A DNA stretch of 64,000 nt from Panopea generosa (taxonomy: Eukaryota > Mollusca > Bivalvia > Adapedonta > Hiatellidae). The translations under genes and the position numbers were made by a program. Positions 13,101 to 49,549 of this stretch are shown here, in pieces (positions within the stretch are counted from its first letter, which is position 1; every line of letters starts with the position of its first letter). Under the pieces are notes generated by a model. That model had not been told where the DNA came from and ran no database searches. It saw only the letters and a program-made list of their open reading frames with translations. The stretch spans positions 49,478,412 to 49,542,411 of the forward strand of contig CM055909.1 in NCBI GenBank assembly GCA_029582155.1. Reading direction: 5' to 3'.

Positions 13101-16100
13101 TATCTCATCAAATGTTACCATGCCCTTCCTCATGTCAACCCACCAAATACATATCCCACCAAACCTTACCATGCCCTTCCTCGCTCCAACCAAACAAATA
13201 CATAACCCACAAAACCTTACCATGCCCTTCCTCACTACAACCAAACAAGTACATATCTCATCAAATGTTACCATGCCCTTCCTCACGTCAACCCACCAAA
13301 TATATATCCCACCAAACCTTACCATGCCCTTCCTCACTCCAACCCAACAAATACATATCCCATCAAACCCTAACCTGCCTTTCCTTTTTTCTCCAATCCA
13401 ACAAATATATATCCCATCAAACCCTATCCTGCCCTTCCTCACTTAAACTCACCAAATATATATCCCATCAAGCCCTATCCTGCCCTTCCTAACTCCAATT
13501 TACTAAATATATATCCCATCAAACCCTATTCTGCCCTTCCTCAATCCAACTTACCAAATATATATCCCATCAAACCCCTTTCCTGCCCTTCCTTACTCCA
13601 ACCCACCAAATATATATCCCATCAAGCCCTTTCCTGCCTGTCCTCACTCCAACTCACCAAATACATATCCCATCAAACCCTAACCTGCCTTTCCTTTTCT
13701 CCAACCCAACAAATATATATCCCATCAAGCCCTATCCTGCCCTTCCTCACTTAAACTTACCAAATATATATCCCATCAAGCCATATCCTGCCCTTCCTAA
13801 CTTAAACTCACCAAATATATATCCCATCAAACCCTATTCTGCCCTTCCTCAATCCAACTTACCAAATATATATCCCATCAAACCCCTTTCCTGCCCTTCC
13901 TCACTCCAACCCACCAAATATATATCTCATCAAGCCCTATCCTGCCTGTCCTCACTCCAACTCACCAAATACATATCCCATCAAACCCTAACCTGCCTTT
14001 CCTCTTCTCCAACCGTACAAATATAATATCCGATCAAACCCTATTCTGCCCTTCCTCAAACCAACTTACCAAATATATATCCCATCAAACCCCTTTCCTG
14101 CCCTTCCTCACTCCAACCCACCAAATATATATCCCATCAAATCCTATCCTGCTCTTCCTCACTCTAACTCACCAAATATATATCCAATCAAACCCCTTTC
14201 TTTTCCTTCCTTACTCCAACTCACCAAAGATATATCCCATCAAACCCTATCTTGCCCTTCCTTACTCCAACCCACCAAATACATATCCCATCAAACCCTA
14301 ACCTGCCTTTCCTCTTCTCCAACCCAACAAATATAATATCCGATCAAACCCTATTCTGCCCTTCCTCAATCCAACTTACCAAATATATATCCCATCAAAC
14401 CCCTTTCCTGCCCTTCCTCACTCCAACCCACAAAATATATATCCCATCAAATCCTATCCTGCTCTTCCTCACTCCAACTCACCAAATATATATCCCATCA
14501 AACCCCTTTCTTGTCCTTCCTTACTCCAACTCACCAAATATATATCCCATCGAACCCTATCTTGCCCTTCCTTACTCCAACCCAACAAATAATATCCCAT
14601 CAAATCCCTTTCCTGTCCTTCCTTACTCCAACAAACCAAATACATATCCCATCAAACCCTATTCTGCACTTCCTCACTCCAACTTACCAAATACATATCC
14701 CATCAAACCCCTTTCCTGTCCTTCCTTACTCCAACCCACCAAATACATATCCCATCAACCCCTATTCTGCCCTTCCTCACACAAACCCAACAAATACATA
14801 TTCCATTAACTCCTATTCTGCCCTTCCACACTCCAACCCAACAAATATATATCCCATCAAACCCTATTCTGCCCTTCCTTACACCAACCCAACAAAAATA
14901 TATCCCATCAAACCCCTTTCATGTCCTTCCTTACTCCAACTCACCAAATACATATCCCATCAAACCGTATTCTGCCCTTCCTCACTCCAACCCAACAAAT
15001 ACATATCCCATCAAACCCTTTCCTGTCCTTCCTCACTCCAAGCCAGCAAATATATACCCCATCAAACCTTACCATGCCCTTCCTCACTCCAACCCAACAA
15101 ATACATATCCCATCAAACCTTACCATGCCCTTCCTTACTCCAACCCAACAAATACATATCCCACCAAACCCTACCCTGCCCTTCCTCACTCCAACCAAAT
15201 AAAAACATAGCCCACCAAACCTTACCATACCCTTCCTCACTCCAACAAAACAAATATATATCCCATCAAACCTTTCCCTGCCCTTCTTCACTCCAACTAA
15301 ACAAATATATATCCCATCAAACCTTTCCCTGCCCTTCCTCACTCCAACAAAACAAATTTATAGTCCACCAAACCCTACCATGCCCTTCCTCACTCCAACT
15401 CACCAAATACATATCCCATCAAATCTTACCCTGCCCTTCCTCACCCAAACCCAACAAATACATATCCCGTCAAACACTACGCTGCAATCTTCACTCCAAC
15501 TCACCAAATACATATCCCATCAAACCATACGGTGCCCTTCCTCACCCTAACCCAACAAATACATATCCCATCAAACCCTACCCTACCCTTCCTCATACCA
15601 ACCCAACAAATACATATCACACCAAACCTTACCATGCCCTTTCTTACCACATCCATGATATTTTATTGCACCCTGGTCCCAATATATATCCCATCAAACA
15701 CTACCCTAATAACCTATCACACCCAGAACCTATACAGGATGTTAAACTGTTATATACCAAAATGAACACCACCCAGCACTACCAAATCAAAGCCTACCAA
15801 AACAATGATGACATATACCTACGATGGTGATATTTTTGTAGTATACATGTAGTTGTTTTATCAATTCCAGCAAGTAGAGCTTGCAACCGAGGCAATATTT
15901 CTGAAAATATGGGACGAGGCTCACTACAAAGTATTCCAACAGAAATTTTCCGTAAAAAAGCTGACCTCATGTCATAGATTCAGGATCAGGAAAAGGTATC
16001 ATGTTTTATGAAAACATTTAATTACTGGGTTCTAATTATCAGGGGCCAGTTCCATTAATATTTGTTAGTTTATGCTGAGCCCGATTAGCTCAGTCGGCAA

Positions 16101-19400: not shown

Positions 19401-22400
19401 CAACCAGTATGTCAGCAACCAGTATGTCTGCAACCCTAGATGTCTGCAACCAGTATGTCTGCAACCCTAGATATCTGCAACCCTAGATGTTTGCAACCAG
19501 TATGTCTGCAACCCTAGATGTATACAACCAGTATGTCTGCAACCCTAGATGTATGCAACCAGTATGTCTGCAACCAGTATGTCTGCAACCCTAGATGTCT
19601 GCAACCAGTATGTCTGCAACCAGTATGTCTGCAACCCAAGATGTCTGCAACCAGTATGTCTGCAACCAGTATGTCTGCAACCCTTTATATCTGCAACCAG
19701 TATGTCAGCAACCAGTATGTTAGCAACCAGTATGTCTGCAACCAGTATGTCTGCAATCCTAGATGTATGCAACCAGTATGTCTGCAACCAGTATTTCTGC
19801 AACCCTAGATGTATGCAACCAGTATGTCTGCAACAAGTATGTCTGCAACTAGTATGTCTGCAACCAGTATGTCTGCAACCAGTATGTCTGCAACCCAAGA
19901 TGTCTGCAACCATCATGTCTGCAACCCAAGATGTCTGCCACCCTAGATATCTGCAACCAATATGTCTGCAACCCTTGATGTCTGCAAGGCTGCGTTTCAC
20001 AAAATAATTCGCCATATGTCAATTTGACAATTTCTCTGATGTTTCTTCAAATTTTGATCAATGTTAAATGATATCATATTTTACACAGTTTGAGCAAAAT
20101 TTGTGTTCATTTGGATAAATATTAAAAAATATTATGTTGGTTTATGTTTATGACATTTTTGTCATAATTTTTTTTCAAGAATTTCATACAAGCAAATTGT
20201 GAGAACGTTTCATTTTCATACTCTTTATAAGGCTTACAAAAGATCGTAAAATAAGAAAGTGTCATTCTTCCTTGAGGTTTTTGTTGTGTGCACTCTAGCA
20301 CCTCTCAGAAAAGTTGTTGAACTGTCCAAATCATAATTATTATTTATGTCAGAGTAATGACCCTCGAAACATTAAAAAGAATGCTTTATTTGACCATGTG
20401 TGCACTTTAGTACTTGCATTTTTTTTCATTTGATTCTTACACAATTGCTAAGTATCATATATATATTTCATAGCTGCTATAAAATACATGTACAATTTTT
20501 ATCTAACAAAGCATCTATTAACAATTTCATATTATGTTATTACTGTGTTTATCATATACCTTTGAAATACTGATAAACTGTTGTATGTATTGCCACTGCA
20601 TTTACAATGTCATTGATTTCCACCCACTACTCTACCCTGTTGTGACGCTGGAACTATTGATGATGTGGCGTATTAAATCATATGGCGTAATATATCTAAT
20701 TTGATGACTTAAAAGCCATCGTGGTAAATATATAATAATAATAATATAAATTAACATAAGAATACAATGTGTTTGGTATGCAAGAAAAATAATCTTATGT
20801 AACAGAATAACAGAATGTACAATAATCATAGACATTTTGTCATACGCCAAAATGTTGAAAGGATCAGCTACATATTCAATCATTGACAAATGCGCCCTTC
20901 TACAGCAATCTGTTCAGTCTGTTCATCAGTCAGTAAACATCACAGGACGTTTGTAAACCTTTTTCAATCCTGAACAGAAAAACTTACATGGCTTTTTTCG
21001 GTGTAGATAGAAAATTCTGTCCCTTGGGATATCTGTTTTTGCGGGAACTTGGCAGTCTTGTACCTGTCTTGTACCTGCCAGAAATGTTATCCCTCGGGAC
21101 AAAATTTTCTATTTGAACCTAAAACCTATGCAAGATTCTCGTACTCCTACTACTACATGAATGAAAACTATCCAGTATTAACAGAATTCACAAACATAAC
21201 CGCATACAAAAATGTTTCTGGATTGTTTGAAAATGTGGTTCTAATGCAAAAATATTTACAAATATACAGTGTTATATGTTTTATGATTATTAAGGCATCC
21301 ACCTCCATCTGGGATATGTCAGAGACCAGTGAAACCAAGCTTAGATGGATATTTCATACTAAAGAAATGGTTCGAAAAAAATATAAATCACTTGTACCCA
21401 TCAAGGCAAATGAAACAGAATTTGGCGATACAAACTGGCAAAACCTATATGCAGGTAAAGTATTGTTAGGTATTATACCTCATTTTCATATTTCTTTCTT
21501 TGTTCAGAGTAATATTATCATGTCAATATAGACTGGTCGGACCAAGTCCAGTATAAAATCATTGTTGGTATCATCCAGTGCAATATTCAAAATGATAACA
21601 AATAATATAATTATTATGTTTCAGTTGAAATGCAAGTTTAAATCCAGACTAGGCAGTAGGATCTAGAAAATTATATGGATTGAAACGATGTAAAACTGTG
21701 TGACTGCCCATCCATGGAACTCGATATTCATGTATTATATTATTTTGTTAAACATATCATGAAGATAAGGGTGTTGTCTAAATATTGGAATCATAACTCC
21801 TAAACCAACCAACAAATTTTTCTGATTTTGGTATCAAGTTAAAGGGCTTGGTTGTAATTTTTAGGGGTAAACTTCTCTTTTTTAAATTTAAAGAAATTCT
21901 GATATTTATATGCTTACAGTTATATTACTCATTTTTAGCCCACTTTTAAAGTAAAAAGTAAGAAAATCTTCTTTTAATAATAATATCATTTTATTTTTCA
22001 CCTGTGGATATTTAACTTGTTCATTTCTATAATGTGTTTTTAAAATGTATTTGTTAATGCGATAACTCATCATTTTTTGTTAAAATAATAAATATTTCAT
22101 AAAAATTTCAATATTTTTCGTTTTCAACTTGTATTTATTTGAAATCAGAATAAAAATATTAATAACTGATTATTAGAAGTGGTCAACATTTTTTCAGCTT
22201 TACTTCAGTACAAAAGTTATCAAATTCAGACACAAGTTTAAAGACTAATTAAATAAAGGCCAAAGATGCCACCCGAAATTTCAGTCATTTGTATTGAATT
22301 TATATTAGCCAGCATAAAGTCACCGCAGATACTTGTGATAGATGTGACTTCCATATATTGTAGGTCAGTAATTGGTTTGCTAATGCTCGCCGAAAAAGAC

Positions 22401-25400
22401 GAATATTACAGAATAAACAAAATGAGACAAGCGGACACCACTACAAATCAGTCCAAGTCCAGACACCTGTTATTAAACACGAGAATTATCATGGTGAGGC
22501 TTCCGAAAATGGTGAAGATATTATTGAAGAAAACGAAAATGCTGATCAGGAATGTCATTTGACTTTTAAAGCATTATTTGTAGCTAACAATTTGAAGGAT
22601 GTCAAAATATCTAGGTCCAAGGAATACTGTAACAATGTGATAGAACAGGCTAGTATTACAAGTGAACAAAATGGCGACCTTCCACAGACTGACAATGCTT
22701 CAAATGTAAGAGAAGATACCAAATCAGAGACAAATGAACAAAATGGCGAACTTTCACAGACTGACAATGCTTCAAATGTAAGAGAAGATACCAAACCAGA
22801 GACAAACGAACAAAATGGCAAACTTTCACAGACTGACAATGCTTCAAATGTAAGAGAAGATACCAGACTAGAGACAAATGAACAAAATGTTGACCTTCCA
22901 CCGACTGACAATGCTTCAAATGTAAGAGAAGATACCAGACCAGAGACAAATGAACAAAATGGCAACCTTCTACAGACTGACAATGCTTCAAATGTAAGAG
23001 AAGATACCAGACTAGAGACAAGTGAACAAAATGTTGACCTTCCACAGACTGACAATGCTACAAATGTAAGAGAAGATACCAGACCAGAGACAAGTGAACA
23101 AAATGTCGACCTTCTACAGACTGACAAGGCTTCAAATGTAAGAGAAGATACCAGACTGGAGACAAGTGAACAAAATGGCAACCTTCCACAGACTGACAAT
23201 GCTTCAAATGTAAGAGAAGATACCAAACCAGAGACAAATGAACAAAATGGCAACCTTCCACTGACTGACAATGCTTCAAATGTAAGAGAAGATGCAAGAC
23301 TAGAGACAAGTGAACAAAATGGCGACCTTCCACAGACTGACAATGCTTCAAATGTAAGAGAAGATACCAAACCAGAGATAAGTGAACAAAATGGCGACCT
23401 TCCACAGACTGACAATGCTTCAAATGTAAAAGAAGATGCAAGACTAGAGACAAGTGAACAAAATGTCGACCTTCAACAGACTAGTGATGCATCAAATGTA
23501 GGAGAAGATACCAGACTGGCGACAAGTGAACAAAATGGCAACCTTCCACAGATTGACATTGCATCAAATGTAAGAGAAGATACCAGACCAGAGAAAAGTG
23601 AACAAAATGACTATGTTGCAACTGATGTCACTTGTGAGTTAAAAAATCTGCCAGTGACTGTTACCACACCTGTTGAAAAACAAAAAAATGACTTCAAATC
23701 GAATCCTGGGATCCCTTTTAAACCACGCCATTCACTTATCAATTCTCAACAAGGGATTGCATTTGATTCTGTAAGAGAAAAGAAATTAAATGATTGTTTA
23801 TTTAACAAAACAAACAAGAAATATCAGGTTTGCAAATTTAAAAGGAATGAAAATATGGGAGATGTTCAAATAAAGAAAAAACAAAAACTGCTACCTACAG
23901 TTTTCTTTGACAGATCAGAAAATGCTAAGGAAATTGATGCCATTAATTTTCTTAAATCCAAGAGAGAAAAGTTTTCTACCAGACAAAGATTAAGCAGCAT
24001 AAAGTCTGCATGGAAACTTAGACAAAAATTAAAAGAGAAAAAGAGAAAAGAAAATGAGTTACAGTCTAAGTATATTGATATGTCCAACGTCGAAATTCAC
24101 GATGCTGGCAAAAGTTTACAAGCTCTCCAAAAATTGTGTGATGATGTGGAAAACACAACCACTTTACTTGTAGATTTCGACACAGAGGATGATGATAGCG
24201 ACACACTGAAGATTGTAAGTGATGAAGAGACTGATACATGTGACTCAGCAGATGATGAGTTGATTACTGCTGATGATGAAATCTTCAATAAACAAAATCT
24301 GATGCAGAATGAACTTGAAGATACTGGTAGCAGGTATTTCAACGCTTTGGTCGTCACTTCAAGGTCACATGGAGGCAGTAACAACAGACAATTGCAAGAT
24401 AGTGGAAGTAGATATTCTGATACAAGCAATCAACAATTAGGACCAGTTGGATTCCCTCTTAGCTATGAACCGGTCAGCCCAATGGGTGCAGCTAATGCAG
24501 ATCGCGTCACCCCAGTACAGCTGTATAAAAGGAGCTACCCAAAACATGTTGCAGGTAAATTTAACTTGATATGTTACTCAAAACAATAAGATCAGTCATT
24601 GCACTGGTGTTTTGTTAGCATCAAGAACAATTTTAAGTGGGGCGATATGGGTAGTGGAAGAAATGTTGGCCGCTTACGCTAGAGGTTGTGGGTTTGTTCC
24701 TCAGTCAAACTAGATGCCTCTCAAAAAAAATAACACACTCAGTACTGGTTCTATCCAGGAAACGGACTTGAGAGTGGCTCATATAAGTTTTGAGCTTTCT
24801 TTGCAACAAACTATTAGAAATAATCTATACTGAATGGAACAGCTAACACACCACCTGACATTTTATGTACCTGACACATATATGTATTTTCTCAAAACGT
24901 ATCAAAGCAATTTCTTTGAAATTTGAACTTGAATAAGAAAGAACATTTATGTATAATCAATACATACCACATTGTCTGTTAATGTTTTATATACGTATTT
25001 AATAACGCTACTCAGTATTTTGACGAAGATGTTAGAAATACAAAAGTGGTGGATTAGCGTTCAGTATAGTTTACATGGCATTTTTACCTTATTTTACAGT
25101 CCAATATTTGGCTATTTGAGTTACGTGGGTTAGGCCATTATGAATTAATTGCTAGACTATCATCTAAATTTTTCTTAAAAAAAAGGAGGGTGGGACGATT
25201 TTATTTTTTATTTTTATTGTTAAAATTTTTGATGTTTTTTTTTTAATAAAAAAAATAATTTAAAAAAAAATTATGAAAATAAAAAGAGCCGGGGCGGCAT
25301 GAAAATGAGGGGGCGGGTAGGGATGATAATCTAGCAATTAATTTATTATGGTCTTACTGGTATTTAATTTATTCCAGCAGATTATACTATGTATGAAATA

Positions 25401-28400
25401 TATTAGAAATTAAATAATCAAATGAATATCATTTTCCAATAAAAATGTTTGACTTGATTTTTTTGTTTATTTCTAAACATGAATCAAATTCAGTTGTCAT
25501 AAAAGGTTAAAAAATTTACCATCTTTCCTTCCCTGCTTGAAATAGACAGCAGCAAAAATGCAAATTTTATATGTTTTAATGAAGTCACAAGCTTATTTCC
25601 AACTGTTTACGATAGATTTAAATGCATCACCTGTATAAACCGATACTATTATGGCAAATTAAGTCGAAAAAAAAAAATTCAACATAGATATGGCTTGAAC
25701 TCACGATATCTGGGTTGACAGTTCAAACCATTACCACTATGTTATCAGGACAGACAGAAGTACAACACACTTAATATTGATATCTAGTTTATTTTATAGA
25801 TTATGTAACAGATACGTCTGCTATCATACTACAATCAGCCCTAATACGGAAGTTTCCATCTAAAAATAAAATGATGTAGTTTCAAAATAGCTGATTCAGT
25901 TTATACCTTTCTGTTCAGTAAATAATGGAAAGTTTATTGAATGACAAAGAGGAAGGTCCCATTCGAAGGTAATGGTTGATTCTGTCCTTGTAGTTAATTT
26001 TATTTATAAGATCATAATAAACATGTCGGCATCTCCGTTTTTATTCGTCAATGATTTAGCGTAACCTGATAATGGCCAATGAGTCATTTTATTGTGGGCC
26101 ACGATTTAGTATTTGGTCAAAGATATTACAGATTTTTACACTACAGAGACAAAATACAATATAGATTATTGAACAGAATATTCATAATATATGATGTTTG
26201 ATATAAATGTGCAGTTTTACTAAGATCGAAAATATAACGGCGACATAGGTGAGGCCTCTTTAAGCTTTAATATCTAGGTCAATAATCTGAACTGAAACAC
26301 GCAGCCAAAGCCCTTGAACTTTTGAGAGGTTGGCCCAAGTTGGTCTTCATCTCAATGGGTTCTTCACTTGGAAGTAACTTCAATACAAAGCTATACATGT
26401 GTATATACTCCATCTTAATTGAAGGTGGGTCAGAAGTCATGCCACCATATATACAGAAGGTACCATGGCTGCCAGGAAAACGTATGACAGAAGACATAAA
26501 TGTACCTGTGAGATGGGATACAGGTAAATATCAACCATTTGTTGATTTGTCCATCGCAGTTTTGTATCCTGGCCTCGAGGTTATAAGATATTTTTCATGC
26601 TCAACTCAAATTCATACTCAAAACACAATTTCTAGGAGTCACATACAAACACAATTTAAAGTGCAAACGCTTGAATAGGTCTCGAATTTTAGAGTATTAA
26701 TGCAGATTTGAGGTGGAAAATTATTCGTATTTACGTTTATTTTCTTATAATGAGCTGAGTCATCTTTGAGTTGAACATGAAATCTTGAGTTGAGTATGGA
26801 AAAAATATTTATAACCTCGGACCCAGGCTGTATCTTTGCATGAATTTAGTTTTGTATCTTTGCATGAATTCTAGTTTTGTATCTTTGCATGAATTCTAGC
26901 TTTGTATCTTTGCATGAATTCTAGTTTTGTATTTTTGCATGAATTCTAGCTTTGTATCTTTGCATGAATTTTAGTTTTGTATCTTTGCATGAATGCTGGT
27001 GTAATCATTCTAGTTTAAATTTCTATCCAGGCTGTATTTTTGCATGGATACTGATCTATCCGTTCAAGTTTTCTTTCAAGATCTATAAATAGGCTAATGA
27101 CCACTCTAAACAGTCCAACATATATATGTGCACTTGCCCTCAAAATTGTATATGACCTTTACCGGTATTGCCAAGCAACCTGTACGAAAATTTGTCAAAG
27201 ATAAACCACCTCTTTGAATATTGAGATGATCTTCCATCCCAGTTATGTGTACAATCTCTGTGTTTGTTTTACATTAATTTAAGCTACCTTTTTTGTGGAC
27301 ATTTTTTTTGTTCATGTAATTTTTTTAGCAATTTGTCTTGGTATTCTGTACCTTAAAATTTGTGAAGATATTTGGACAGATGTTAATCACATCAATTAAG
27401 CTATTCTTGAAAAAATATAAATTGTTTCTTAACGTATGATTTCTTAACATATTGAGTTATTTTTTATTCCCTTGCCATAAATAGAGGGGAAAGCATATAG
27501 TTATTTACACTTGACAGTATGTAATAATATTTTTTTTTATGTATGTCTGTCCATCCCAATTTCCCTATACATGCATATACATTTTGTGTCTCCCCAACTT
27601 GTCACAGTTCAAGGCATCATATTTATACCAGTGCTGTTCTGATATACTGGTTGATTGTGGTTCGTTCCAAGCAATATGCATATTAAATCAGCAGCATCTG
27701 TGTCGGCCAAACCATGATACAGTGGTAGGTTGTGCTTAATTAAATTCAATTCATAATTCGACATACTTTTAAACAAAATGGATAAGACAGTGTCGATTCC
27801 TTGCATGTTGAATTTCTGTAGTCTATTTATAGATCAGGTAGAGCAAGTATAGCTTCTAGAGGTCGGAATTCACATTTCAATATGTGTATACGAATACAAA
27901 ATTTGCGTTGATAAAACTTCATTTGGCATTCAAACTTTAATTTCAATACTTGTTACTAACCAGCGTATCAGACATTTATATCACAACTGTGTGTCAGTAT
28001 CGCAGTAAATATTGTATCGAAGGTGTCCTGGCAATACTAGCCCAACTTAATACACAGCATAGACACATTCATTTGAACATGAAAGGTTAAAGGTTGTGGA
28101 ATTTTTATGCATTTCATTATATGATGATTAAGACCGCTTTCTCAGTTTAACTTAAAAATGGTAAATCATTTGGTTTTGTGTTTTCACAGCTCCTACATTA
28201 ATTTTATCAAGGGATTACCTTCAAATGAAATACACACAGCTTAAACAACCTTATATCAATTTACACAATAACTATCTATTGATAATATCTCATCTAATCA
28301 TATTTAAATGTTTGAGGTATGGTCCGTGCATTATCAAAAATTGCTTTCTTTGGCATTGTCTTCTCTACCACAGGTGAGCTATTTAAGGCCAGTGGGACCC

Positions 28401-31400
28401 TCTTGTCTTGAAATATAAATGGAGGGACAACATTATTCTGCTTTTGTTATGTCCCAGTTTGTATGTAACCTGCAAGGAGAGAAACATACAGCAGCAGACC
28501 TGCTAGCTTAGTGCAGGTTTAGCATTTATCTCATCACTGAAGAGTCCTGGTTCAAATCCTGGGTTGGATTCATACTTTTCTCATCCCATTACATTTTATA
28601 CTGTGACATAAATGTCTCCTCTCCATAATCTTCCAAAAATAAGCTTTTTCGTATATGTCGAAATTATTTCTTCAGGTAGGAACATGTCTACACCCTTGGC
28701 AACTGAGTTGGATGTTCAGTGTGACACACAGACAGTTACTGAAAATGCTGGCCGGTGCCACATGCAAATAGACTGTGAAACTGTTCATAATGGACAAAGC
28801 CCTGGTTCAGCAGACTGGGTCACCATCGATAATGCGGAGAGTCAAATGGAGATGGACTTTCACGCCATCTATAACAGCGTGGGTGACATGCCAACAGACT
28901 ATGTCACTGTCTATGATGAAACTGGTCACATGCCAGCAGACTGTGATACCGTCTATGATGAAACTGATCACATGCCAACAGACTGTGACACTGCCTATAA
29001 TGAAACGATTCACATGCCAGCTGACTGTGACACTGTTTATGATGCTGTAAGGTATGCATCCACAGACTGGGCCAATGTTAAAGATGGAGGGCAATGTGTA
29101 CCAGCAGACTACTATATAGATTCTGCTGTGGCCAATCCCTACTGGTAAGTAATAAAGCAGCTCTGGTGGTAGAGCCTCATACCCAGAGTGACAGGGTTGT
29201 GGACTCGATCACCACCATGGCCATGTATGGTGTCCTTGAGACAAGAATTGTCATAATCACTTGAAATACATAAAATAATAGGGCACATAGTGTAGTGGTA
29301 GAGCATTGGACCCAGCACCAGAGGGCTGGTTCCATCTTGACCACTACACCTGTGTATTATCTTTATTTACTTTAATAAAATAAATATTCAAGATGGTTAC
29401 AAAAGACACTCAAAGTTTACATGTTTTTGCATCATACACTGAACAAAAAAACAAAAATACGATTTCCATACATATTTTTTTCCGATGTCTAAAATTAATG
29501 TTAGTGAAAATGTATGATGTGCTACATATACACTTGTAATCAGCATTGTAAGTGATGTTAGTGCCTCCAGCTGTGCTGTTAGAAGTCAGACGACGCATCT
29601 TCATTGAGGGGTCCTCCACAGCTAAGTGGTCTGAGGTGCTGTTGTCTAGTGATCACCTACCTCTCACCACTAAGGTCATAGGTTCAAGTTCCACTCAGTC
29701 CAAAAACTTTATTTGAGAAAGTTGCTAGTTACTTGCAGAAGGACGGTGGTTCTACTCAGTCTGATTCAGTTTGAGGTCTTCTTCCACCAGTAAAACTGGA
29801 TATGCCATATATAACCTGAAATGTGTTGAAAATGGAATTAAACTCCAGTAAAAAAAACAACAAACTCTTCAGTAAGCAGAAGGTATTTAAAGACCTGCCG
29901 TGTAGTGGATATCATTGTGTCACAACTCGCGTCTAAGACTACTTTAACAGAAATACCCACATGCAGGATCAGTCTCAGACAGCAACCACAAGTGTTGCTT
30001 ATACACCTGGGGCCCATTTCACTTATGCTTCAGTCACATTTGTGCCGATTTCCGAAAAGGCGCCTGGGCGATGAGTTTCTTGGCCAAAATTGACCAGCAA
30101 GCCGGGGAACCATTAGGACGCTGGGAGATTATCAGCCACTATCTGCCGATTTTTAGGTGCCGCACGGTTGCTGGGAGCTTTTAGCACAGAGATAAAAGTT
30201 GCCGGTGTCTCGCCGATTTTGGTGTTGACTTGTGAGCTTCCTCTATATATAAACCCCATTAAAATGCAAAATATCATAAGGGCTACGTATGTATCCCGTA
30301 CGTATCCTGCCTGTCATACGGCCAGAAGTCGCACGAACATCTTTTGGCTACCGTATGACAGCCCAGCCATCGTCAGAAAGCCTTGCGGTATCCTTGCGAT
30401 ATTCTTATGGGCTCCCTACGGTATCCTTTAGATGTCTTTCGATTTAATCTGGCAAATTGTTTGCGGGAGCCTTGTGGTGCCCGTATCCAATGGCAAATCC
30501 CAGACATGGAAAAAAGTCCCTACTTCTTGAGTACAGTACAGTTATTATCTCGGATACATTACAACCTCTATTTCGAGTACATTACAATTTTTATCTCAGG
30601 TACATTACAATTTTTAACTTGGGTACATTACAACCTGACTGAAGCATTACCTTTGTAAATCATTAAGATTTTTGTACGAAAAAATTGTGACACCAAGGAA
30701 AGTTTCTGTTATGATTATTTTTGCAAATTTCATAAGAATTCTATTTCTAAGTGATGTAAGCAAAACAATAAATGAATTTCCAATTTTTTTTTGGTTACTT
30801 CAAAATTTTCATTAAGAATTTTGTAAACTTATAATGTTAGTGAAACAGGCCCCAGGTACACGTAACAATCGAAACATGAAACCATAGATTAAATGATAAT
30901 TTAAAATATCTACAATCAAATTTATTTTGAACAGTTCTTTTTATGTTCTGGAAGAATGCAAATTGATCAAAATTATTCACTATATTTCATTATAATTGAA
31001 ATACATCAGTAAAAAAGTAAAATATTATCAAATATTGAATTGTACATTCTAAATTCTTACTATATTGTTAAAGAAATGCAAATAATAATTATGGTTTAAA
31101 AGAAATCATATCTGTTTCTTCACAGCAACCAAACACCTGAGGGCAGTGCTTTTGATCTTTGTTGCCATGGATACCATTATTATGCCCAAGAGAACTATCA
31201 AGGCAACACAGTGCAACCTTTATCTCAGGTACATTACAGCCATTATCTCAGGTACATTACAACCTTTATCTCAAATACAGTACAACCTTTATCTCAGGTA
31301 CATTGCAACATTTATCACAGATACATTACAACCTTTATCTCAGGTACATTACAATTTTTTTTTTATCTCAGGTACATTACAACCTTTATCTTGAGTACAT

Positions 31401-33163
31401 TACAACCTTTATCTCAGGTACATTAAAACCTTTATCTCAGGTACATTACAATTTTTTTTTTATCTCAGGTACATTACAACCTTTATCTTGAGTACATTAC
31501 AACCTTTATCTCAGGTACATTAAAACCTTTATCTCAGGTACATTACAACCATTATCTCAGGTACATTACAACCTTTATCTCAGGTACATTACAACCATTA
31601 TCTCAGGTACATTACAACTTTTATCTCGGATATATTACAACCTTTATCTAGAGTACATTACAATTTTTATTTTGGGTACATTACAACCTTTACTTTAGTA
31701 CATTTCAATCTTTATCTCAGATACATTGCAACCTTAATCTCAGGTACATTGCAACCTTTATCTCAGGTACATTACAATCTTTATCTCAGATATATTACAA
31801 CCTTTATCCAGAGTACATTACAATTTTTATCTCAGGTACATGTCAACTTTTATCTCAGGTATATTACAATCTTTATTACAGTTACATTACAACCTTTATC
31901 TCAAAGAATATAACAACCATTATCTCAGGTACATTACAATCTTTATCTCAGGTACATTACAATCTTTATTTCAGGTACATCTCAGGTTCATTACAATTTT
32001 ATTTTAGGTACATTACAATCTTTATCTCAGGTACATTGCAACCTTTATCTCAAGTACATTACAATCTTTATCTCGAGTACAGTAAAGTTTTTATCTCGGA
32101 TACATTAGAATCTTTATTTTGAGTACATTACAATTTTTATCTCAGGTACATTACAATTTTTAACTCGGGTACATTGCAACCTTTATCTTGGGTACATTAC
32201 AATCTTTATCTCAGGTACATTGCAACCTTTATCTCAAGTACATTACAATCTTTATCTCGAATACAGTAAAGTTTTTATCTCGGATAAATTAGAATCTTTA
32301 TTTTGAGTACATTACAATTTTTAACTTGGGTACATTACAACCTTTATCTTGGGTACATTACAATTTTATTTCTGGTACATTACAACCTTTATCTCAGGGT
32401 ATTTAACAATCATTATCTCAGGTACATTACAATCTTTATCTCAGGTACATTACAATCTTTATCTCAGATACATTACAACCTTTTTCTCAGGTACATTACA
32501 ACCTTTATCTCAGGTACATTACAACCTTTATTTCAGGGTATATGACAATCATTATCTAAGGTACATTACAATCTTTATCTCAAAGTATATAACATCCATT
32601 ATTTCAGATACATTACAATCTTTATCTCAGATACATTACAACCTTTATTTCAGGTTCATTACAATTTTTATATCTGGTACATTACAACCTTTATCTTGAG
32701 TATATTACAATCTTTATCTCAGGTACATTGCAACCTTTATCTCAGGTACATGGTAACATTTATCTTTGGACCATTATAATCTTTATCTCAAGTACAGTAC
32801 GATTTTTATCTCAGATATATTACAACCTTTATTTCGAGTACATTACAATTTTTATCTCAAGTACATTACAATTTTTAACTTGGGTACATTACAACCTTTA
32901 TCTTAGGTACATTACAATTTTATTTCTGGTACATTACAACCTTTATCTCAGGTACATTACAATTTTTATATGATTTTCGTCATATGTTTTCTTATTGTTA
33001 TTGTCAAAGTATATTCAATCTATATTTTTTTCAGCAATTTTATGATACAATGGTAGGGGAGGCAATCCAGGGTTTGTTGACTTTGTCTTCTCAGGAATCA
33101 GAAAGCAACAGTTGCAGTTATGAAACATCTACACAAATGGAATCATTGGAAGAATCAATTTAA
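9968..33163 (+). CDS. ANHX-like: SIX-domain/homeodomain transcription factor, anomalous homeobox (ANHX)-like; full gene model
   Basis: The joined exons are 9968-10177, 15871-15995, 21295-21454, 22364-24554, 26305-26523, 28676-29144, 31126-31228 and 33035-33163. All have GT-AG boundaries and compatible phases, giving 1201 codons plus stop. Residues about 47-120 resemble the C-terminal half of a SIX domain, including LKIWDEAHYKVFQQKF and FRIRKRHPPPSGIC. Residues about 122-181 form a homeodomain: LKKWFEKNINHLYPSRQMK, then QVSNWFANARRKRR with W48, F49, N51 and R53 present. The Ala at position 50 (WFAN) separates it from canonical SIX proteins (WFKN). The run of RKR-x-PPP followed by Cys fits the vertebrate ANHX family. 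Residues 266-577 are 13 tandem 24-residue repeats. An acidic region, a 14-residue-repeat exon and a short Ser/Glu-rich C-terminus follow. It is a predicted nuclear DNA-binding protein. The N-terminal helices of a full SIX domain are not seen. Confidence 0.82.
10370..10490 (-). repeat. tRNA-derived SINE-like fragment in intron 1
   Basis: On the minus strand the segment reads as a tRNA-like head with a B-box-like GGTTTGATCC, followed by a body ending GGACTCGGGAGCGG. A related arrangement occurs near 24640-24790 (plus) and 60695-60790 (minus). Confidence 0.55.
10785..12960. repeat. 50 bp satellite, subfamily A, in homeobox intron 1
   Basis: About 43 units of 50 bp contain CTCACCAAATATATATCC then AAACAACCCTATCCTGCC and TTTCCTCACTCAAA. 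Most are nearly identical. A few units at the left end and singletons inside the block carry the CCATCAAA signature of subfamily B, suggesting local conversion. Confidence 0.97.
12961..15660. repeat. 51 bp satellite, subfamily B, in homeobox intron 1
   Basis: About 53 units of 51 bp carry CCCATCAAACC in place of CCAAACAACC. They are more diverged than subfamily A, with some units on an AAATACATATCCC variant. Because 51 is a multiple of three, frames stay open for hundreds of codons (for example about 14511-15830). These are not genes: they have no start context, splice logic or compositional difference from the array. Confidence 0.96.
15871..15995 (+). CDS. ANHX-like gene exon 2 (C-terminal SIX-like region)
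   Basis: The acceptor is TTTTATCAATTCCAG and the donor AAAAG|GTATCA. The 41 codons plus two bases read QVELATEAIFLKIWDEAHYK, then VFQQKFSVKKLTSCHRFRIR and K. The W-x-x-AHY and FRxRKR motifs line up with SIX/ANHX-family proteins (LWYKAHY and KYRVRRK in SIX). It sits about 200 bp after the satellite ends. Confidence 0.85.
16079..16414 (+). repeat. tRNA-derived SINE, family 1 (near full length)
   Basis: The tRNA-like head has an A box (TTAGCTCAGTCGG) and a B-box-like GTTTGAATCCC. The conserved body reads ATTCAAGTGGGAAAGTAATC ... AACCATTCAGGATCCCAG, and the 3' tail is (CAAT)n at about 16360-16414. The acceptor stem does not pair well, so this is not read as a functional tRNA. It lies in homeobox intron 2 and is the only plus-oriented copy of its family here. 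Confidence 0.88.
16520..18125. repeat. ~165 bp tandem repeat carrying TCAAGGTCA half-sites
   Basis: About ten diverged units contain GGCCTGTAACTTTGTCATGC, ACTTGCTACAAATGATCAAC and CCTCAAAGGTCAAGGTCA. The repeat type is common in molluscs, from memory. Most units retain TCAAGGTCA, which matches the extended half-site bound by NR5A/ERR-type nuclear receptors. Whether this has a role is unknown. Confidence 0.9.
18385..19985. repeat. 15/16 bp two-letter minisatellite in homeobox intron 2
   Basis: Over 100 units are of two types: ATGTCTGCAACCAGT (15 bp) and ATGTCTGCAACCCTAG (16 bp), in an irregular order, with rare CCAAG and TATAT variants towards the right. Open frames on either strand are artefacts. 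Confidence 0.97.
19986..20979. other. Intronic AT-rich stretch (homeobox intron 2)
   Basis: No exon, RNA or clear repeat is supported. An (ATA)n tract lies near 20730-20745. TGTGTTTGGTATGCAAGAAA near 20768 recurs just upstream of the inverted-repeat element at 40199, so part of this segment is also repeated. Confidence 0.5.
20980..21139. mobile_element. Foldback/MITE-like element, copy 1
   Basis: The left arm (AGATAGAAAATTCTGTCCC, then TTGGGATA) is inverted in the right arm (CCCTCGGGACAAAATTTTC, then TATTTGAA), making a hairpin of about 160 bp. A second copy lies at 40199-40359. It ends about 155 bp before homeobox exon 3. There is no transposase, and a non-autonomous element is inferred. 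Confidence 0.75.
21295..21454 (+). CDS. ANHX-like gene exon 3 (homeodomain helices 1 and 2)
   Basis: The acceptor is GATTATTAAG and the donor ATGCAG|GTAAAG. Read in the phase dictated by exon 2, it gives HPPPSGICQRPVKPSLDGYF, then ILKKWFEKNINHLYPSRQMK and QNLAIQTGKTYMQ. The more conspicuous open frame across this exon (about 21049-21531) is a different frame. The first base completes an Arg codon with exon 2. The PSRQ-x-K and LA-x-x-TGKT-x-x-Q spacing is that of homeodomain helix 2 leading to the turn. Confidence 0.85.
21540..22263. other. Homeobox intron 3, AT-rich
   Basis: No repeat or exon is recognised apart from A/T-rich low complexity. The following exon begins at 22364 with a clean TTGTAG acceptor. 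Confidence 0.5.
22364..24554 (+). CDS. ANHX-like gene exon 4 (homeodomain helix 3, 24-residue repeats, acidic region)
   Basis: The acceptor is CATATATTGTAG and the donor GTTGCAG|GTAAAT. The first residues, VSNWFANARRKRRILQNKQN, are homeodomain recognition helix 3 with a basic tail. There follow about 80 polar residues, then 13 repeats (22664-23599). A basic helical segment follows (about 23960-24075, KLRQKLKEKKRKENE), and then a strongly acidic stretch (about 24170-24285, DFDTEDDDSD and DSADDELITADDE). At 2191 bp this exon holds 61 percent of the coding sequence. The acidic part could be an activation region, but that is inference. Confidence 0.88.
22664..23599 (+). repeat. Coding tandem repeat, 13 units of exactly 72 bp (24 residues)
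   Basis: Units begin EQNG-[DNKE]-L and contain QTDNASNVREDT. Each codes 24 residues, and the span is exactly 13 x 72 bp with no indel. Variation is mostly at EQN[GV][DNEK]L, at [KR][PLS]ET[NS], and in decayed units at the right end (TSDASNVGED, IDIASNVRED). It is hydrophilic and probably disordered. Confidence 0.97.
24640..24800 (+). repeat. tRNA-derived SINE-like copy in intron 4
   Basis: A tRNA-like head (TGGCCGCTTACGCTAGAGGT, then GTGGGTTTGTTCCTC) is followed by a tail with ACTGGTTCTATCCAGGAAAC. The minus-oriented segments near 10370-10490 and 60695-60790 appear related. Confidence 0.55.
25131..25357. mobile_element. MITE-like element with ~32 bp terminal inverted repeats (intron 4)
   Basis: The left end, CCATTATGAATTAATTGCTA then GACTATCATC, is inverted at the right end as GATGATAATCTAGCAATTAA then TTTATTATGG, with only a few mismatches. 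The core is A-rich low complexity plus a G-rich patch. No open reading frame is present. Confidence 0.78.
25680..25775 (-). repeat. tRNA-like SINE fragment (intron 4)
   Basis: The segment around GGCTTGAACTCACGATATCT and CAGTTCAAACCATTACCACT resembles a reverse-oriented tRNA B box and anticodon region. It is short and degraded. Confidence 0.4.
26305..26523 (+). CDS. ANHX-like gene exon 5
   Basis: The acceptor is ACACGCAG and the donor GATACAG|GTAAAT; it is 219 bp, phase 1 to phase 1. The 73 codons read AKALELLRGWPKLVFISMGS, then further to EVMPPYIQKVPWLPGKRM and a C-terminal PVRWDTG. It is open throughout in the phase required by exon 4 and matches no domain I recognise. A second possible donor (AAG|GTACCA at about 26460) would change the phase to 0. 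Confidence 0.68.
26568..26827. mobile_element. MITE-like element with ~42 bp terminal inverted repeats (intron 5)
   Basis: The left end (CCTGGCCTCGAGGTTATAAG, then ATATTTTTCATGCTCAACTC) is matched in inverted orientation by GAGTTGAGTATGGAAAAAAT, then ATTTATAACCTCGGACCCAGG. The element is about 260 bp, lacks coding capacity and lies 45 bp after homeobox exon 5. Confidence 0.82.
26828..27010. repeat. ~25 bp minisatellite (TTTGTATCTTTGCATGAAT)
   Basis: About seven units of TTTGTATCTTTGCATGAATT plus CTAG directly abut the right end of the inverted-repeat element. The element's left flank also contains TTTGTATCCTGG, so the array may have grown from the target-side sequence. Confidence 0.85.
27608..27724 (+). 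CDS. Candidate alternative (possibly poison) exon of the ANHX-like gene
   Basis: Flanking signals are good (CCAACTTGTCACAG acceptor and ACAGTG|GTAGGT donor), and composition is more GC-rich than the intron. The length of 117 bp is a multiple of three. Only phase 0 is open (FKASYLYQCCSDILVDCGSF, then QAICILNQQHLCRPNHDTV). Exons 5 and 7 meet in phase 1, and in that phase this exon hits TGA after 11 codons. It is therefore left out of the main model. It may be a nonsense-mediated-decay exon, an exon used with the alternative exon 5 donor, or not an exon. Confidence 0.4.
28498..28575 (+). repeat. tRNA-like fragment (intron 6 in the model)
   Basis: CTAGCTTAGTGCAGGTTTAG resembles an A box, and CTGGTTCAAATCCTGGGTTG resembles a B box. 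The acceptor stem is not convincing, so it is read as a SINE head rather than a tRNA gene. Confidence 0.45.
28676..29144 (+). CDS. ANHX-like gene exon 7 (14-residue repeats)
   Basis: The acceptor is ATTTCTTCAG and the donor is very strong (CTACTG|GTAAGT). It is phase 1 to phase 2 and open over 469 bp. It opens RNMSTPLATELDVQCDTQTV and then consists of about eight diverged 14-residue (42 bp) units of the type MPADCDTVYDETDH between about 28760 and 29113. It ends SAVANPY. Asp/Tyr/Cys content is high and no known domain is recognised. Confidence 0.78.
29155..29345 (+). repeat. Two tRNA-like SINE fragments in intron 7
   Basis: The segments around GGTGGTAGAGCCTCATACCC and GTGTAGTGGTAGAGCATTGG each look like an A box followed by a degraded B box (GGACTCGATCACC and GGTTCCATCTTGACC). 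Confidence 0.45.
29607..29868 (+). repeat. tRNA-derived SINE, family 2 (plus copy)
   Basis: The head GGTCCTCCACAGCTAAGTGG, then TCTGAGGTGCTG, has class II (Leu/Ser-like) spacing to GGTTCAAGTTCCACTCAGTC. The body includes GTTACTTGCAGAAGGACGGT and ends in AACCTGAAATGTGTTGAAAA, then TGGAATTAAACTCCAGTAAA. Other copies are at 59459, 45013, 55193, 58977, 62996 and 63640. Confidence 0.8.
30006..30856. mobile_element. Non-autonomous DNA transposon with TACA flanking duplication (intron 7)
   Basis: The left terminus CCTGGGGCCCATTTCACTTA is inverted at the right terminus as TTAGTGAAACAGGCCCCAGG. The 4 bp flanks are identical (TACA at 30002-30005 and 30857-30860), consistent with a target-site duplication. 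No transposase frame is seen in the ~850 bp interior. The interior contains a small block (30535-30650) of the 23 bp repeat that later fills intron 8. A lone end of the same family (TTAGTGAAACAGGCCC) lies near 18320. Confidence 0.82.
30535..30650. repeat. Small block of the 23 bp repeat inside the intron 7 transposon
   Basis: About five units with ACATTACAA-CCTTTATCTC-type sequence lie 480 bp before exon 8. They have the same monomer as the large array that begins at the exon 8 donor. Confidence 0.85.
31126..31228 (+). CDS. ANHX-like gene exon 8 (its 3' end lies in a repeat unit)
   Basis: The acceptor is TGTTTCTTCACAG and the donor TCTCAG|GTACAT. It is phase 2 to phase 0. After the shared Cys it encodes NQTPEGSAFDLCCHGYHYYA, then QENYQGNTVQPLSQ. 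The last 15 bases and the donor are identical to a monomer of the following 23 bp array, so the exact donor used cannot be fixed from sequence alone. The first is chosen because it joins in frame to the terminal exon. Confidence 0.72.
31214..32968. repeat. 23 bp minisatellite with a splice donor-like site in most units (intron 8)
   Basis: About 75 units of 23 bp carry CTTTATCTCAGGTACATTAC. The CAG|GTACAT junction in the consensus is exactly the exon 8 donor. Variants replace CAG with CGG, CGAG or TTGGG. The array fills almost the whole of intron 8, which ends with a TTTTTTTCAG acceptor at 33034. Confidence 0.95.
33035..33163 (+). CDS. ANHX-like gene exon 9 in numbering (terminal coding exon with stop)
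   Basis: The acceptor is TATATTTTTTTCAG, in phase 0. It encodes QFYDTMVGEAIQGLLTLSSQ, then ESESNSCSYETSTQMESLEE and SI, followed by TAA at 33161-33163. The Ser/Glu-rich tail has no recognised domain. A 77-base spacer leads to the first AATAAA (33240-33245), which lies in the first units of the following array. Confidence 0.8.
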   Translation, partial: QFYDTMVGEAIQGLLTLSSQESESNSCSYETSTQMESLEESI

Positions 33164-33194
33164 GTTGCTCAATTTTTTAGTTGTGGTATCTGCT

Positions 33195-35255
33195 AGAGGT
33201 GCTGTAAGTGATATAAACATCAGAAAATAGGCACCTAGAAATAAACATCAAACCAGAGGAGCACTAAGTGATATAAACATCAGAAAATAGGCACCTAGAA
33301 ATAAACATCAAACCAGAGGAGCACTAAGTGATATAAACATCAGAAAATAGGCACCTAGAAATAAACATCTAACTAGAGGAGCTGTGATATAAACATCAGA
33401 AAATAGGCACCTAGAAATAAACATCTAACCAGAGGAACACTAAGTGATATTAACATCAGAAAATAGGCACAAGAAATAAACATCTAACTAAAGGAGAACT
33501 AAGTGATATAAACATCAGAAAATAAGCCCCAGAAATAAACATCTAACTAAAGGAGAACTAAGTGATATAAACATCAGAAAATAGGCACCTTGAAATAAAC
33601 ATCTAACCAGAGGAGAACTAAGTGATATAAACATCAGAAAATAGGCACCAGAAATAAACATCTAACCAGAGGAGAACTAAGTGATATAAACATCAGAAAA
33701 TAGGCACCAGAAATAAACATCTAACTAGAGGAGAACTAAGTGATATAAACATCAGAAAATAGGCACCAGAAATAAACATCTAACCAAAGGAACACTAAGT
33801 GATGTAAACATCAGTAAATAGGCACCAGAAATAAATATCTTACTAGAGGAGCATTAAGTGATGTACACATCAGAAAATAGGCACCTAGAAATAAACATCT
33901 AAATAGAGGAACACTAAGTGATATAAACATCAGAAAATAGGCAAAAGAAATAGACATCTAACTAGAGGAGCACTAAGTGATGTAAACATCAAAAAATAGG
34001 CACCAGAAATAAACATCTAACTAGAGGACCACTAACTGATGTAAACATCAAAAAATAGGCACCAAAAAATAAACATCTTACTAGAGGAGAACTAAGTGAT
34101 ATAAACATTAGAAAACCATCACCTAGAAATAAACATCTAAATAGAGGAGCACTAAGTGATGTAAACATCAGAAAATAGGCACTAGAAATAAAGATCTAAC
34201 CAGAGGAGCACTAAGTAATGTTAACATCAGAAAATAGGCACCAGAAATAAAGATCTAACCAGAGGAGCACAAAGTGATATAAACATAAGAAAATAGGCAC
34301 CAGAAAGAAACATCTAACTAGAGGAGAACTAAGTGATGTAAACATCAGAAAATAGGCACCAGAAATGAAGATCTAACCAGAGGAGCACTAAGTGATATAA
34401 ACATAAGAAAATAGGCACCAGAAAGAAACATCTAACTAGAGGAGAACTAAGTGATGTTAACATCAAAAATAGGCACCAGAAATAAACATCTTACCAGAGG
34501 AGCAAGTACTAAATGATATAAACTTCAGAAGACAGGCACCAGAAATAAACATCTAACCAGAGGAGCAAGTACAAAATGATATAAACATCAGAAGACAGGC
34601 ACCAGAAATAAACATCTAACAAGAGGAGCAAGTACCAAATGATATAAACATCAGAAGACAGGCACCAGAAATAAATATCTTACCAGAAGAGCAAGTTCCA
34701 TATAATATAAACATCAGAAGACAGGCACCAGAAATAAACATCTAACCAGAGGAGCAAGTACTAAATGATATAAACATCAGAAGACAGGCACCAGAAATAA
34801 ACATCTAACCAGAGGAGCAAGTACTAAATGATATAAACATCAGAAGACAGGCACCAGAAATAAACATCTTACCAGAGGAGCAAGTACAAAATGATATAAA
34901 CATCAGAAGACAGGCACCAGAAATAAACATCTAATCAGAGGAGCAAGTACCAAATGATATAAACATCAGAAGACAGGCACCAGAAATAAACATCTAACCA
35001 GAGGAGCAAGTACCAAATGATATGAACATCAGATGACAGGCACCAGAAATAAACATCCAACCAGAGGAGCAAGTACAAAATGATATAAACATCAGAAGAC
35101 AGGCACCAGAAATAAATATCTAACAAGAGGAGCAAGTACCAAATGATATAAACATCAGAAGATGGGCACCAGAAATAAACATCCAACCAGAGGAGCAAGT
35201 ACTAAATGATATAAACATCAGAAGACAGGCACCAGAAATAAACATCTTGGCAAGC
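33195..35255. repeat. ~60 bp minisatellite starting just after the homeobox stop, AATAAA in most units
   Basis: About 34 units of 57-63 bp contain GTGATATAAACATCAGAAAA, GGCACC and AGAAATAAACATCTAACCAG. Two blocks can be told apart: GAAAATAGGCAC before about 34480 and GAAGACAGGCACC after it. Most units carry a canonical polyadenylation hexamer. The array begins within the likely 3' untranslated region. Confidence 0.95.
33240..33245 (+). terminator. First candidate poly(A) signal of the ANHX-like gene (AATAAA)
   Basis: The first AATAAA after the stop codon, 77 bases downstream. Equivalent hexamers repeat about every 60 bases through 35250, so the real cleavage site or sites cannot be chosen from sequence. 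Confidence 0.4.
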
Positions 35256-47929: not shown

Positions 47930-49549
47930 CTATAGGCATGTACCCACCTTTTTAAGTCCACCTTTGCCAAAGTTCCTGATGTCCAACATCATTTGTTCCC
48001 GGGGGTCCAACTGTCTTTCAAATTTCTTCTGCTTGGGTTTGGAATATTTTGCATCTGCTTTTGAAGCTTTTGGTTTGGAGGATACGGTGGGAGGCGGTGC
48101 TGGTGCAACAGGGGGTTCTTGAGGGGGTAGCACCTTAATTTGGTTTTGTGGATATGCTTGCACTGGTGAGGGAGCTCGATTTTTTTCACTTTCTTTTGAT
48201 AATGTTTGTACAGTCTGCATAGGAGTTTGAACAGTTGCCATGGGAACTATGGCAGGCTGGGCGAGAGTTTGACTCTGGAATGGTTGAGCGGTGAGAGTGT
48301 TTTGTAATGTAAGAGCCGTCATGCTCTGCTGCAGCTGTAACAACATCTGTTGCTGCATCTGAATTTGTAATTGTAGCTGTTGTAACTGAAGATTTGATTG
48401 GTCATCTGCTCCTGCTGCAGCCATTTGATTGGTTGATGATACATCAGGAGCTGCCTGACTGGCTAAGAGATTTTGATTTTGAATAAGCTGATTTTGCCAC
48501 ATTGTAAACTGTTGTTGTAATTGTTGATAATGTGTCTGCATCAAGTTTTGTGTCTCGAAAGTGTCATCTTTTCTCGGCGAAATATCGCTCTTTAGTGACG
48601 GCGAAGGTGATGATTGTGACAAAGTTATTTGTGTTGATGAAGCATACGTCCGAGACGGATTAATGTTTACATCTTCTGCATGATCACTTTCACTATCATT
48701 ATTTTGTTGAGTTTGTTTCACAGGAGTGCGTTCAGCTGGAAGATTAATCATCGATATCGATTTCTCTTCCAGCACATGTTCTACTTCCCCTTCTGAACTT
48801 GGGGAGAAACTAATATCTGAACACTTGGTTTTAACTCCATTTCTCTCACTATCATCTTCATTATTTTGACTTTCATCAAACACTGGTCCCTGATTTACAT
48901 TACTCACAAACTCCGACTGAATATATTCCTCTTGTGGCTCTTCGTCGAAATTGCACGAACTCCGAAACGCTATTCTGTAATTTACTTTTGGAACATCACT
49001 TGAGACTTTCCTCTCCTTCTTTTGTTCACCTGGCTTATGTGCACTAAAGTCAATGTTCGATAACTCGTCAAGTGATATTACAAACTCTTCTTTTTCTTTC
49101 ACCTTATTTGCCTCCTTCTCTTTCAATTCACTCTCCTCTTCTTGTTTCAAATTTTTAGCATCTTCTCTAGAATTTTTCGGAGTACTATTATCTATTGGAA
49201 TATCACTGTATAATTCACGTGGAGGTAGTGAGAATGTTCGATGCTCTTTCGGGGAGTCTAAGTCTGGAATTCGTCTCGGACTACCCAATTCCATCGTCTC
49301 GGGACGTATTGGTACACTGAAGATTTCTACAATTTCTTCCGTCTCAATAAATTCATCTTCCGACATATGCTCGCCGTGATTCTGAAAATCTGGTGGAACG
49401 GAATCTATTGTAAACTCGTAAGTGATCTCAGAAGATTCGCGGTTTCCTTCAGTGGGTTTTGATTGGCTCATGTCAAAGCTAGCCTCTGATGCTGTATCCT
49501 TTACAACGTCAGTTTCATGGACAATAAATGATGCATCACTATCAGTGCC
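47930..49549 (-). CDS. WH2-motif protein, last exon (540 codons with stop)
   Basis: The acceptor is TTTGATTACAG (ends 49550), in phase 0. The exon opens GTDSDASFIVHETDVVKDTA and continues through Ser/Glu-rich sequence. A Gln-rich helical segment (about 48295-48430, LQLQQLQLQIQMQQQM) is followed by a Pro-rich stretch (PPQEPPVAPAPPP, about 48080-48130). It ends RQLDPREQMMLDIRNFGKGG then LKKV near 47940-48010. The last motif has the WH2 pattern: an amphipathic helix with MLxxIRxF followed by LKKV, an actin-monomer-binding motif. The stop is TAG. AAG|GTGGGT within LKKV looks like a donor, but the nearby poly(A) signal argues that the exon ends here. The family assignment beyond WH2 is unknown; cordon-bleu-like proteins are one possibility. 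Confidence 0.85.
   Translation of the reverse strand, partial: GTDSDASFIVHETDVVKDTASEASFDMSQSKPTEGNRESSEITYEFTIDSVPPDFQNHGEHMSEDEFIETEEIVEIFSVPIRPETMELGSPRRIPDLDSPKEHRTFSLPPRELYSDIPIDNSTPKNSREDAKNLKQEEESELKEKEANKVKEKEEFVISLDELSNIDFSAHKPGEQKKERKVSSDVPKVNYRIAFRSSCNFDEEPQEEYIQSEFVSNVNQGPVFDESQNNEDDSERNGVKTKCSDISFSPSSEGEVEHVLEEKSISMINLPAERTPVKQTQQNNDSESDHAEDVNINPSRTYASSTQITLSQSSPSPSLKSDISPRKDDTFETQNLMQTHYQQLQQQFTMWQNQLIQNQNLLASQAAPDVSSTNQMAAAGADDQSNLQLQQLQLQIQMQQQMLLQLQQSMTALTLQNTLTAQPFQSQTLAQPAIVPMATVQTPMQTVQTLSKESEKNRAPSPVQAYPQNQIKVLPPQEPPVAPAPPPTVSSKPKASKADAKYSKPKQKKFERQLDPREQMMLDIRNFGKGGLKKVGTCL

Follow-up and report, generated by a model that had tools for sequence, protein, structure and literature searches.

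Splice donors within minisatellites are already known from ABCA7 and IFI6, and the array we describe here, in a predicted homeobox gene of the bivalve Panopea generosa, is a further example. The minisatellite of IFI6 (6-16, G1P3) was reportedly described by Turri, Cuin and Porter in 1995 (NAR 23:1854). Three systems come closest to the Panopea array. In human ABCA7 the 25-bp repeat of the intron-18 VNTR flanks an exon and includes its splice donor, and the donor of the next unit is usable, which retains one unit and shifts the frame; this retention is rare (2 +/- 1%) and unchanged with VNTR length (PMC5954066). In IFI6 two downstream repeat units act as donors, and three mRNA species result (PMC4526556), and in human UBC tandem AGGT sites serve both as donor and as acceptor (PMC10809524). 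Our literature search returned no report of repeat units each carrying a donor at an exon-intron boundary, a result that does not prove absence.

The window, by which we mean the whole stretch of 64,000 nucleotides that was analysed, is C16:49478412-49542411 of the 1.47-Gb, 39-contig assembly of P. generosa, and positions below are counted from its first letter. The mapped part of the gene consists of six predicted exons on the + strand that join in phase into one open frame with a single final stop; the names exon 8 and exon 9 are taken over from an earlier note on this DNA. An upstream exon (21295-21454, its start approximate, placed by the joined open frame) encodes the first part of the homeodomain, and a large exon (22364-24554) encodes its helix 3 (VSNWFANARRKRR) together with a 24-aa coding minisatellite, as seen by TRF and Pfam. 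A small predicted exon follows (26425-26523), which has a weak acceptor (2.43) and is the least certain of the six, and then predicted exon 7 (28676-29144), with a 42-bp (14-aa) coding minisatellite and the strong donor CTG/GTAAGT. Predicted exon 8 (31126-31228, 103 bp) was placed by its splice signals and its phase with the neighbouring exons, and its 3′ end reads GTG CAA CCT TTA TCT CAG (V Q P L S Q). The coding part of predicted exon 9, the last coding exon, covers 33035-33163 and closes with the stop TAA at 33161-33163.

The joined protein matches Homeobox_KN (PF05920) with 53.9 bits against a curated cut-off of 24 (E=1.6e-14), and its best PDB matches are Meis1/2 and PKNOX1. From this predicted product we assign the host to the TALE-class homeobox genes, a group that has expanded in spiralians, bivalves included (PMC8524836). 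Pfam gave no match for four open frames left unjoined, and Rfam none at gathering thresholds. One could ask whether the 3′ part of this model is an artefact, with exons 8 and 9 not real and the gene ending at a stop that overlaps the exon 7 donor (TAC TGG TAA). The evidence for the two exons consists of splice signals and open frames, and exon 8 can also be read through in a second frame and, from 31156 on, in the third. Against this stand the strength of the exon 7 donor (rank 15 among the 3158 + strand GTs of the window), that of the exon 8 acceptor TTTCTTCACAG/C (rank 9 among its 3315 + strand AGs), both ranked with crude human matrices, and the single frame that runs open through all six exons, and we regard an artefact as very unlikely.

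Predicted intron 8 (31229-33034, 1806 bp) is 96% tandem repeat. TRF reports a 23-bp minisatellite of 75.4 copies with the consensus CAACCTTTATCTCAGGTACATTA on the + strand at 31214-32969, which a wrap-around alignment resolves into 75 whole units and one partial unit; only the last 65 bp of the intron (32970-33034) are non-repeat, and they end in the acceptor TATATTTTTTTCAG (score 5.97). A 22-base piece of the unit has 56 matches at <=3 mismatches where shuffles expect 0, so the repetition is not due to chance. The predicted junction 31228/31229 falls inside unit 1 (31214-31236), of which 15 bp (31214-31228) close exon 8 with the codons Q-P-L-S-Q and the other 8 bp open the intron. Those 15 exonic bp agree exactly with consensus positions 1-15, and this 15-mer occurs without mismatch in 11 of the 75 units, unit 1 included. 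The earlier note had claimed that an array of about 75 copies of 23 bp nearly fills the last intron and that the end of exon 8 matches it; both claims are borne out, and the sequence is fairly described by its phrase, a minisatellite multiplying a splice donor.

No fixed higher-order period was seen in the array, as identity between units is flat at 0.80-0.83 across lags of 1-39 units (all-pairs mean 0.814). Single long duplications do exist, among them a recent one at 31330-31548 in which an exact 122 bp recurs at an offset of 97 bp (31330-31451 = 31427-31548). This duplication, present in the one assembled allele, suggests that the array is labile.

The default donor of exon 8, CAG/GTACAT (31229-31234), is weak, with a score of 5.68 and a U1 duplex energy of -7.2. 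For the remaining four donors of the model the scores are 7.82, 8.07, 8.07 and 10.83 and the duplex energies -9.6, -8.5, -8.8 and -10.7; all donor scores come from a crude human matrix. The exact 9-mer is found in 29 of the 75 units, that of exon 8 included, while dinucleotide shuffles of the array contain it 0.08 times on average and at most once. CAG/GT is present in 34 units, and 60 have GT where the donor would lie, so that the expectation of a donor in most units holds for the GT alone and fails for the exact CAG/GTACAT. Across the window, 180 of the 3158 + strand GTs score at least 5.68, the 29 array copies among them. No GT in 31126-33034 outscores the 9-mer, and thus, by the matrix, only position separates the 29 sites.

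Donor-like units are not in themselves special to this array. In a set of 38 strand-arrays (non-overlapping arrays of >=4 copies and period 10-110, 13 from the window and 6 from five random 10-kb pieces of the genome, each taken on both strands), two have a unit whose donor reaches 5.68: the array at 31214-32969 and the minus strand of 10821-15641. The latter is a 4.8-kb array of 95 copies of a 51-bp unit, in which the minus-strand unit is strongly donor-like (9.08). The coding minisatellite of the homeobox exon (22658-23609; a 72-bp unit encoding 24 aa, about 13 copies) has a unit donor score of 5.6, and its coding strand carries AATGTAAGA 11 times, so a donor-like repeat in the coding strand does not have to function as a donor.

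Compared with ABCA7, the Panopea array likewise lies head to tail beside an exon and holds the predicted donor of that exon within its first unit, but by sequence match it extends over 15 bp of predicted coding exon as well. ABCA7 alleles are reported with about 12 to 427 units, against about 75 in the one assembled Panopea allele, and the reported effect of ABCA7 length is skipping of the next exon, which in Panopea is the last one. With IFI6 the array shares the presence of a donor-like site in several sense-strand units, 29 of them exact here, though here their use is predicted. The likeness to UBC would lie in a repeated AGGT at which donor and acceptor potential may coincide; the UBC units are, however, coding, spaced at 228-nt intervals and frame-keeping, whereas the Panopea unit is 23 bp long, intronic and frame-shifting, and a dual use, demonstrated for UBC, would here be hypothetical.

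What each donor would mean for the protein can be predicted from the joined frame. Splicing from 31228 would enter exon 9 in frame, from 31251 in a shifted frame, from 31297 in frame with 23 additional aa, from 31343 and 31371 in a shifted frame, and from 31417 in frame with 63 additional aa. When exon 8 is extended into the array, the first in-frame stop is a TAA at 31424-31426, and the remaining 23 of the 29 exact donors lie 3′ of it; all of these would give the same truncated protein, as would full retention of the intron. A stop that lies more than 50 nt before the last exon junction is the usual condition for nonsense-mediated decay (NMD), and for 21 of these 23 donors the stop falls more than 50 nt ahead of the last junction. 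Adding the weaker GTs (score >=0, or any CAG/GT) gives 3 sites in frame, 3 shifted and 50 beyond the stop, 48 of the 50 being NMD-type. The exact donors thus encode at most seven distinct C-termini, on a ladder that spans only the first ~200 bp, and the frame-shifting ladder of C-termini envisaged earlier holds only as far as the sixth exact donor, three of the six being in frame and three shifted, and breaks off past the stop at 31424-31426. The consensus unit is free of stops in all three frames, and an open stretch within the array is for that reason no evidence of selection.

On the balance of these data we consider it rather probable that the minisatellite was born locally, at or beside the junction of exon 8 and intron 8, and that the first donor is the one mostly used, with a minority leak to later units. 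The first unit would then hold the 5′ splice site of the exon, and the spliceosome would mostly take the donor at 31228; the resulting transcript would have an exon of 103 nt, encode the complete C-terminus and retain no repeat. Some leakage to the following units, in a minority of transcripts, is to be expected because five further copies within 200 nt share the 9-nt site, and it would produce up to two longer in-frame and three frame-shifted tails; use of donors beyond the stop at 31424-31426 would give one truncated product, mostly from targets of NMD. Array length would be expected to differ among individuals. From the precedent of ABCA7 and IFI6, low-level use of more than one donor is likely, and regulated use of the donor ladder finds no support.

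It is possible, though on the whole unlikely, that the array is a passive bystander which happens to start at the junction, exon definition ignoring the weak downstream copies so that only 31228 is used. All exact copies are indeed weak, donor-like and donor-dead units are mixed along the array, tandem arrays are abundant in this window, and even in ABCA7 one unit is retained in only ~2% (PMC5954066). On the other side, the copies close to the exon share all 9 nt with the predicted exon 8 donor, exons of 126, 172, 218 and 246 nt are of ordinary size, and the equivalent donor in the second unit of ABCA7 is used, if rarely (PMC5954066).

The abundance of arrays also bears on how surprising their meeting with a junction is. 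TRF arrays cover 27% of the window and 26% of 21295-33164, and in the five random 10-kb genome pieces they cover 23.7, 5.8, 1.0, 27.9 and 3.7%. One of the five donors of the model lies in an array, and none of its six acceptors does; in a window this rich in repeats it is not surprising that an array reaches one of the eleven mapped junctions. The overlap of array and junction is thus within chance, and the unusual feature is how many equal donors there are.

We see no sign in the unit sequences of selection that keeps the extra donors, nor of their removal near the exon. Unit positions 13-16, the core of the donor, are among the most variable, which indicates that the donor copies are not visibly maintained, and they may be passive. 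At positions 13-14 the commonest variants are CA (49 of 75), TG (10) and CG (7), as would fit the decay of a CG pair. Of the first 17 units 13 retain CAG/GT, as do 21 of the 58 later ones (Fisher p=0.005, with a post hoc cut), so the donors near the exon are not visibly purged; their retention is most simply explained by the units there being young.

Several observations point to the exon end as the site of recent growth. Mean identity to the consensus falls from 0.936 in units 1-15 to 0.864 in units 61-75 (Spearman -0.31, p=0.006), and the first 17 units are the most homogeneous of 59 windows of units, with 1 of 10000 permutations as good (again a post hoc cut). As the units near the exon are the most homogeneous and the exact 122-bp repeat lies beside the exon, the recent growth of the array, as judged from its units, sits at the exon end, although the uniformity of the first units may merely mirror recent duplication. 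Growth at the exon end fits an array seeded by the junction, and it also fits an array that overran the junction.

The earlier note had offered two origins, growth of the array from the junction or capture of the donor from the array by the exon. Searched through the whole genome at <=2 mismatches, the unit gave 35 matches, all 35 of them within 2.4 kb at C16:49508996-49511370, against 0 for the control; at <=3 mismatches 45 of 47 matches are at the locus, and the two others are single matches elsewhere, compared with 8 for the reversed control (these genome-wide counts being lower bounds). A scan of viral contigs for the unit gave 0 matches. As the unit is found at this locus only, the arrival of the repeat from elsewhere is unlikely, and a dispersed repeat family captured by the exon was rejected at the sensitivity of the search. 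Of the two origins, capture of the donor from a repeat that existed elsewhere thus appears improbable and local birth of the array is favoured, with the junction or intron DNA close by as candidate seeds: since the 15-mer is common to 11 of the 75 units, the match at the exon end fits seeding by the junction and an overrun of it alike.

The overrun would have been by a local intronic array that crossed an old junction, so that both the donor of the exon and its codons Q-P-L-S-Q would come from the array. We hold this to be unlikely. That an array can expand through boundaries and that the 15-mer of the exon recurs exactly within the array would agree with it, as would a fragment of the array in intron 7, at 30531-30633 on the + strand (4.5 copies; profile E 2.9e-13 to 1.1e-9). 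This fragment, however, is nearest to the far part of the array and not to the junction units: without gaps, 30505-30640 is 82% identical to the array from 32051 and 80% to that from 32766, and it looks like a derived copy. The sequence of exon 8 upstream of 31214 has no resemblance to the unit (Smith-Waterman score 11; mean of shuffles 11.55, with 121 of 200 as high), by which an origin of the whole exon from the array was rejected, and which, like the closer match of the intron 7 fragment to the far part of the array, makes an overrun less probable.

The first 88 bp of exon 8 have one genome match, themselves, and comparison of the protein of exons 7-9 with its own genome, in which 150 of 524 candidates were scored, revealed nothing that could convincingly be called a paralogue of exons 8 and 9. 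The non-self matches of this protein stop by residue 167 of the 232-residue query, with a best E of 2e-4, and lie mainly in the repeat part of exon 7. That repeat is the 42-bp coding minisatellite at 28882-29044 (14 aa, 3.9 copies), which draws weak protein matches across the genome.

We considered two further ideas on what the units could do or have done. In the first, the array is a tandem series of dual-specific sites, each TTTATCTCAG/GTACAT being acceptor and donor at once, by which the intron could be removed stepwise or 23-nt units could be taken in or left out. Each CAG/GT unit has a pyrimidine-rich stretch ending in CAG, as in TTTATCTCAG/GTACAT. The array contains 35 AGGT, a density of 19.9 per kb compared with 3.2 per kb in the rest of the window (shuffles of its dinucleotides give a mean of 11.2 and a maximum of 19). 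The 34 CAGG acceptors have a median score of 6.62, compared with 5.97 for the acceptor of exon 9 and 10.3 for that of exon 8, and a working array of such sites exists in human UBC (PMC10809524). These scores, however, derive from crude human matrices, and single sites of the kind are common: both cut-offs are passed by 54 of 232 + strand AGGT, 30 inside and 24 outside the array, and on the reverse strand, as a control, by 28 of 244. Moreover, the ~21 AG-free nt between successive AGs leave little room for a branch point, and 23 nt, unlike the UBC interval, is not a multiple of 3. We consider dual use improbable; a literature search found no report joining a minisatellite with dual-specific splice sites, which does not prove absence.

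The second and far more speculative idea, to which we give very little credence, is that the minisatellite made intron 8. An exonic TTTATCTCAG/GTACAT would have expanded inside a once-continuous exon 8+9 and would now present 29 equal donors that titrate U1; close relatives would then have exons 8 and 9 fused and intronless. A search with the unit profile found no remnant of the repeat either in the tail of 65 bp or around the acceptor of exon 9, and so gave no support to a derivation of that acceptor from the array. A gapped alignment gave a weak hint of one (score 29; 13 of 600 controls and 9 of 263 AT-matched controls as high, or 27 of 600 and 16 of 263 with stiffer gap costs), and the initial 30 bp of exon 9, taken by themselves, are ordinary (143 of 600 controls as high). 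We also noted an 11-bp word, TCAAAGTATAT, common to an array unit (32580-32590) and to the tail (33004-33014), where 0.11 would be expected, which is a weak hint in the same direction.

Two neighbouring features of the window may be mentioned. A 59-bp array of 33.8 copies lies at 33205-35247, about 40 bp past the predicted stop, and may belong to the 3′ UTR of this gene; the other long arrays of the gene, that is the coding arrays and this one after the stop, span no mapped junction, unlike the array of intron 8. On the minus strand, an open frame of 541 aa (47930-49555), perhaps part of a cordon-bleu-like actin regulator, has a WH2 motif close to its end that stays below threshold (E=0.13).

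The presence of 29 identical 9-nt donors in one intron makes this locus a natural version of the experiment in which 5′ splice sites are set in competition, and the setting is the gene of a developmental transcription factor in a non-model animal. As the unit was found at a single locus only, a comparison with close relatives could date the birth of the array and test whether an exon handed its splice site to a minisatellite. If use of the additional donors were confirmed, the Panopea array would stand beside those of ABCA7 and IFI6 and would suggest that minisatellites spanning a splice donor arise repeatedly, and not only in humans.
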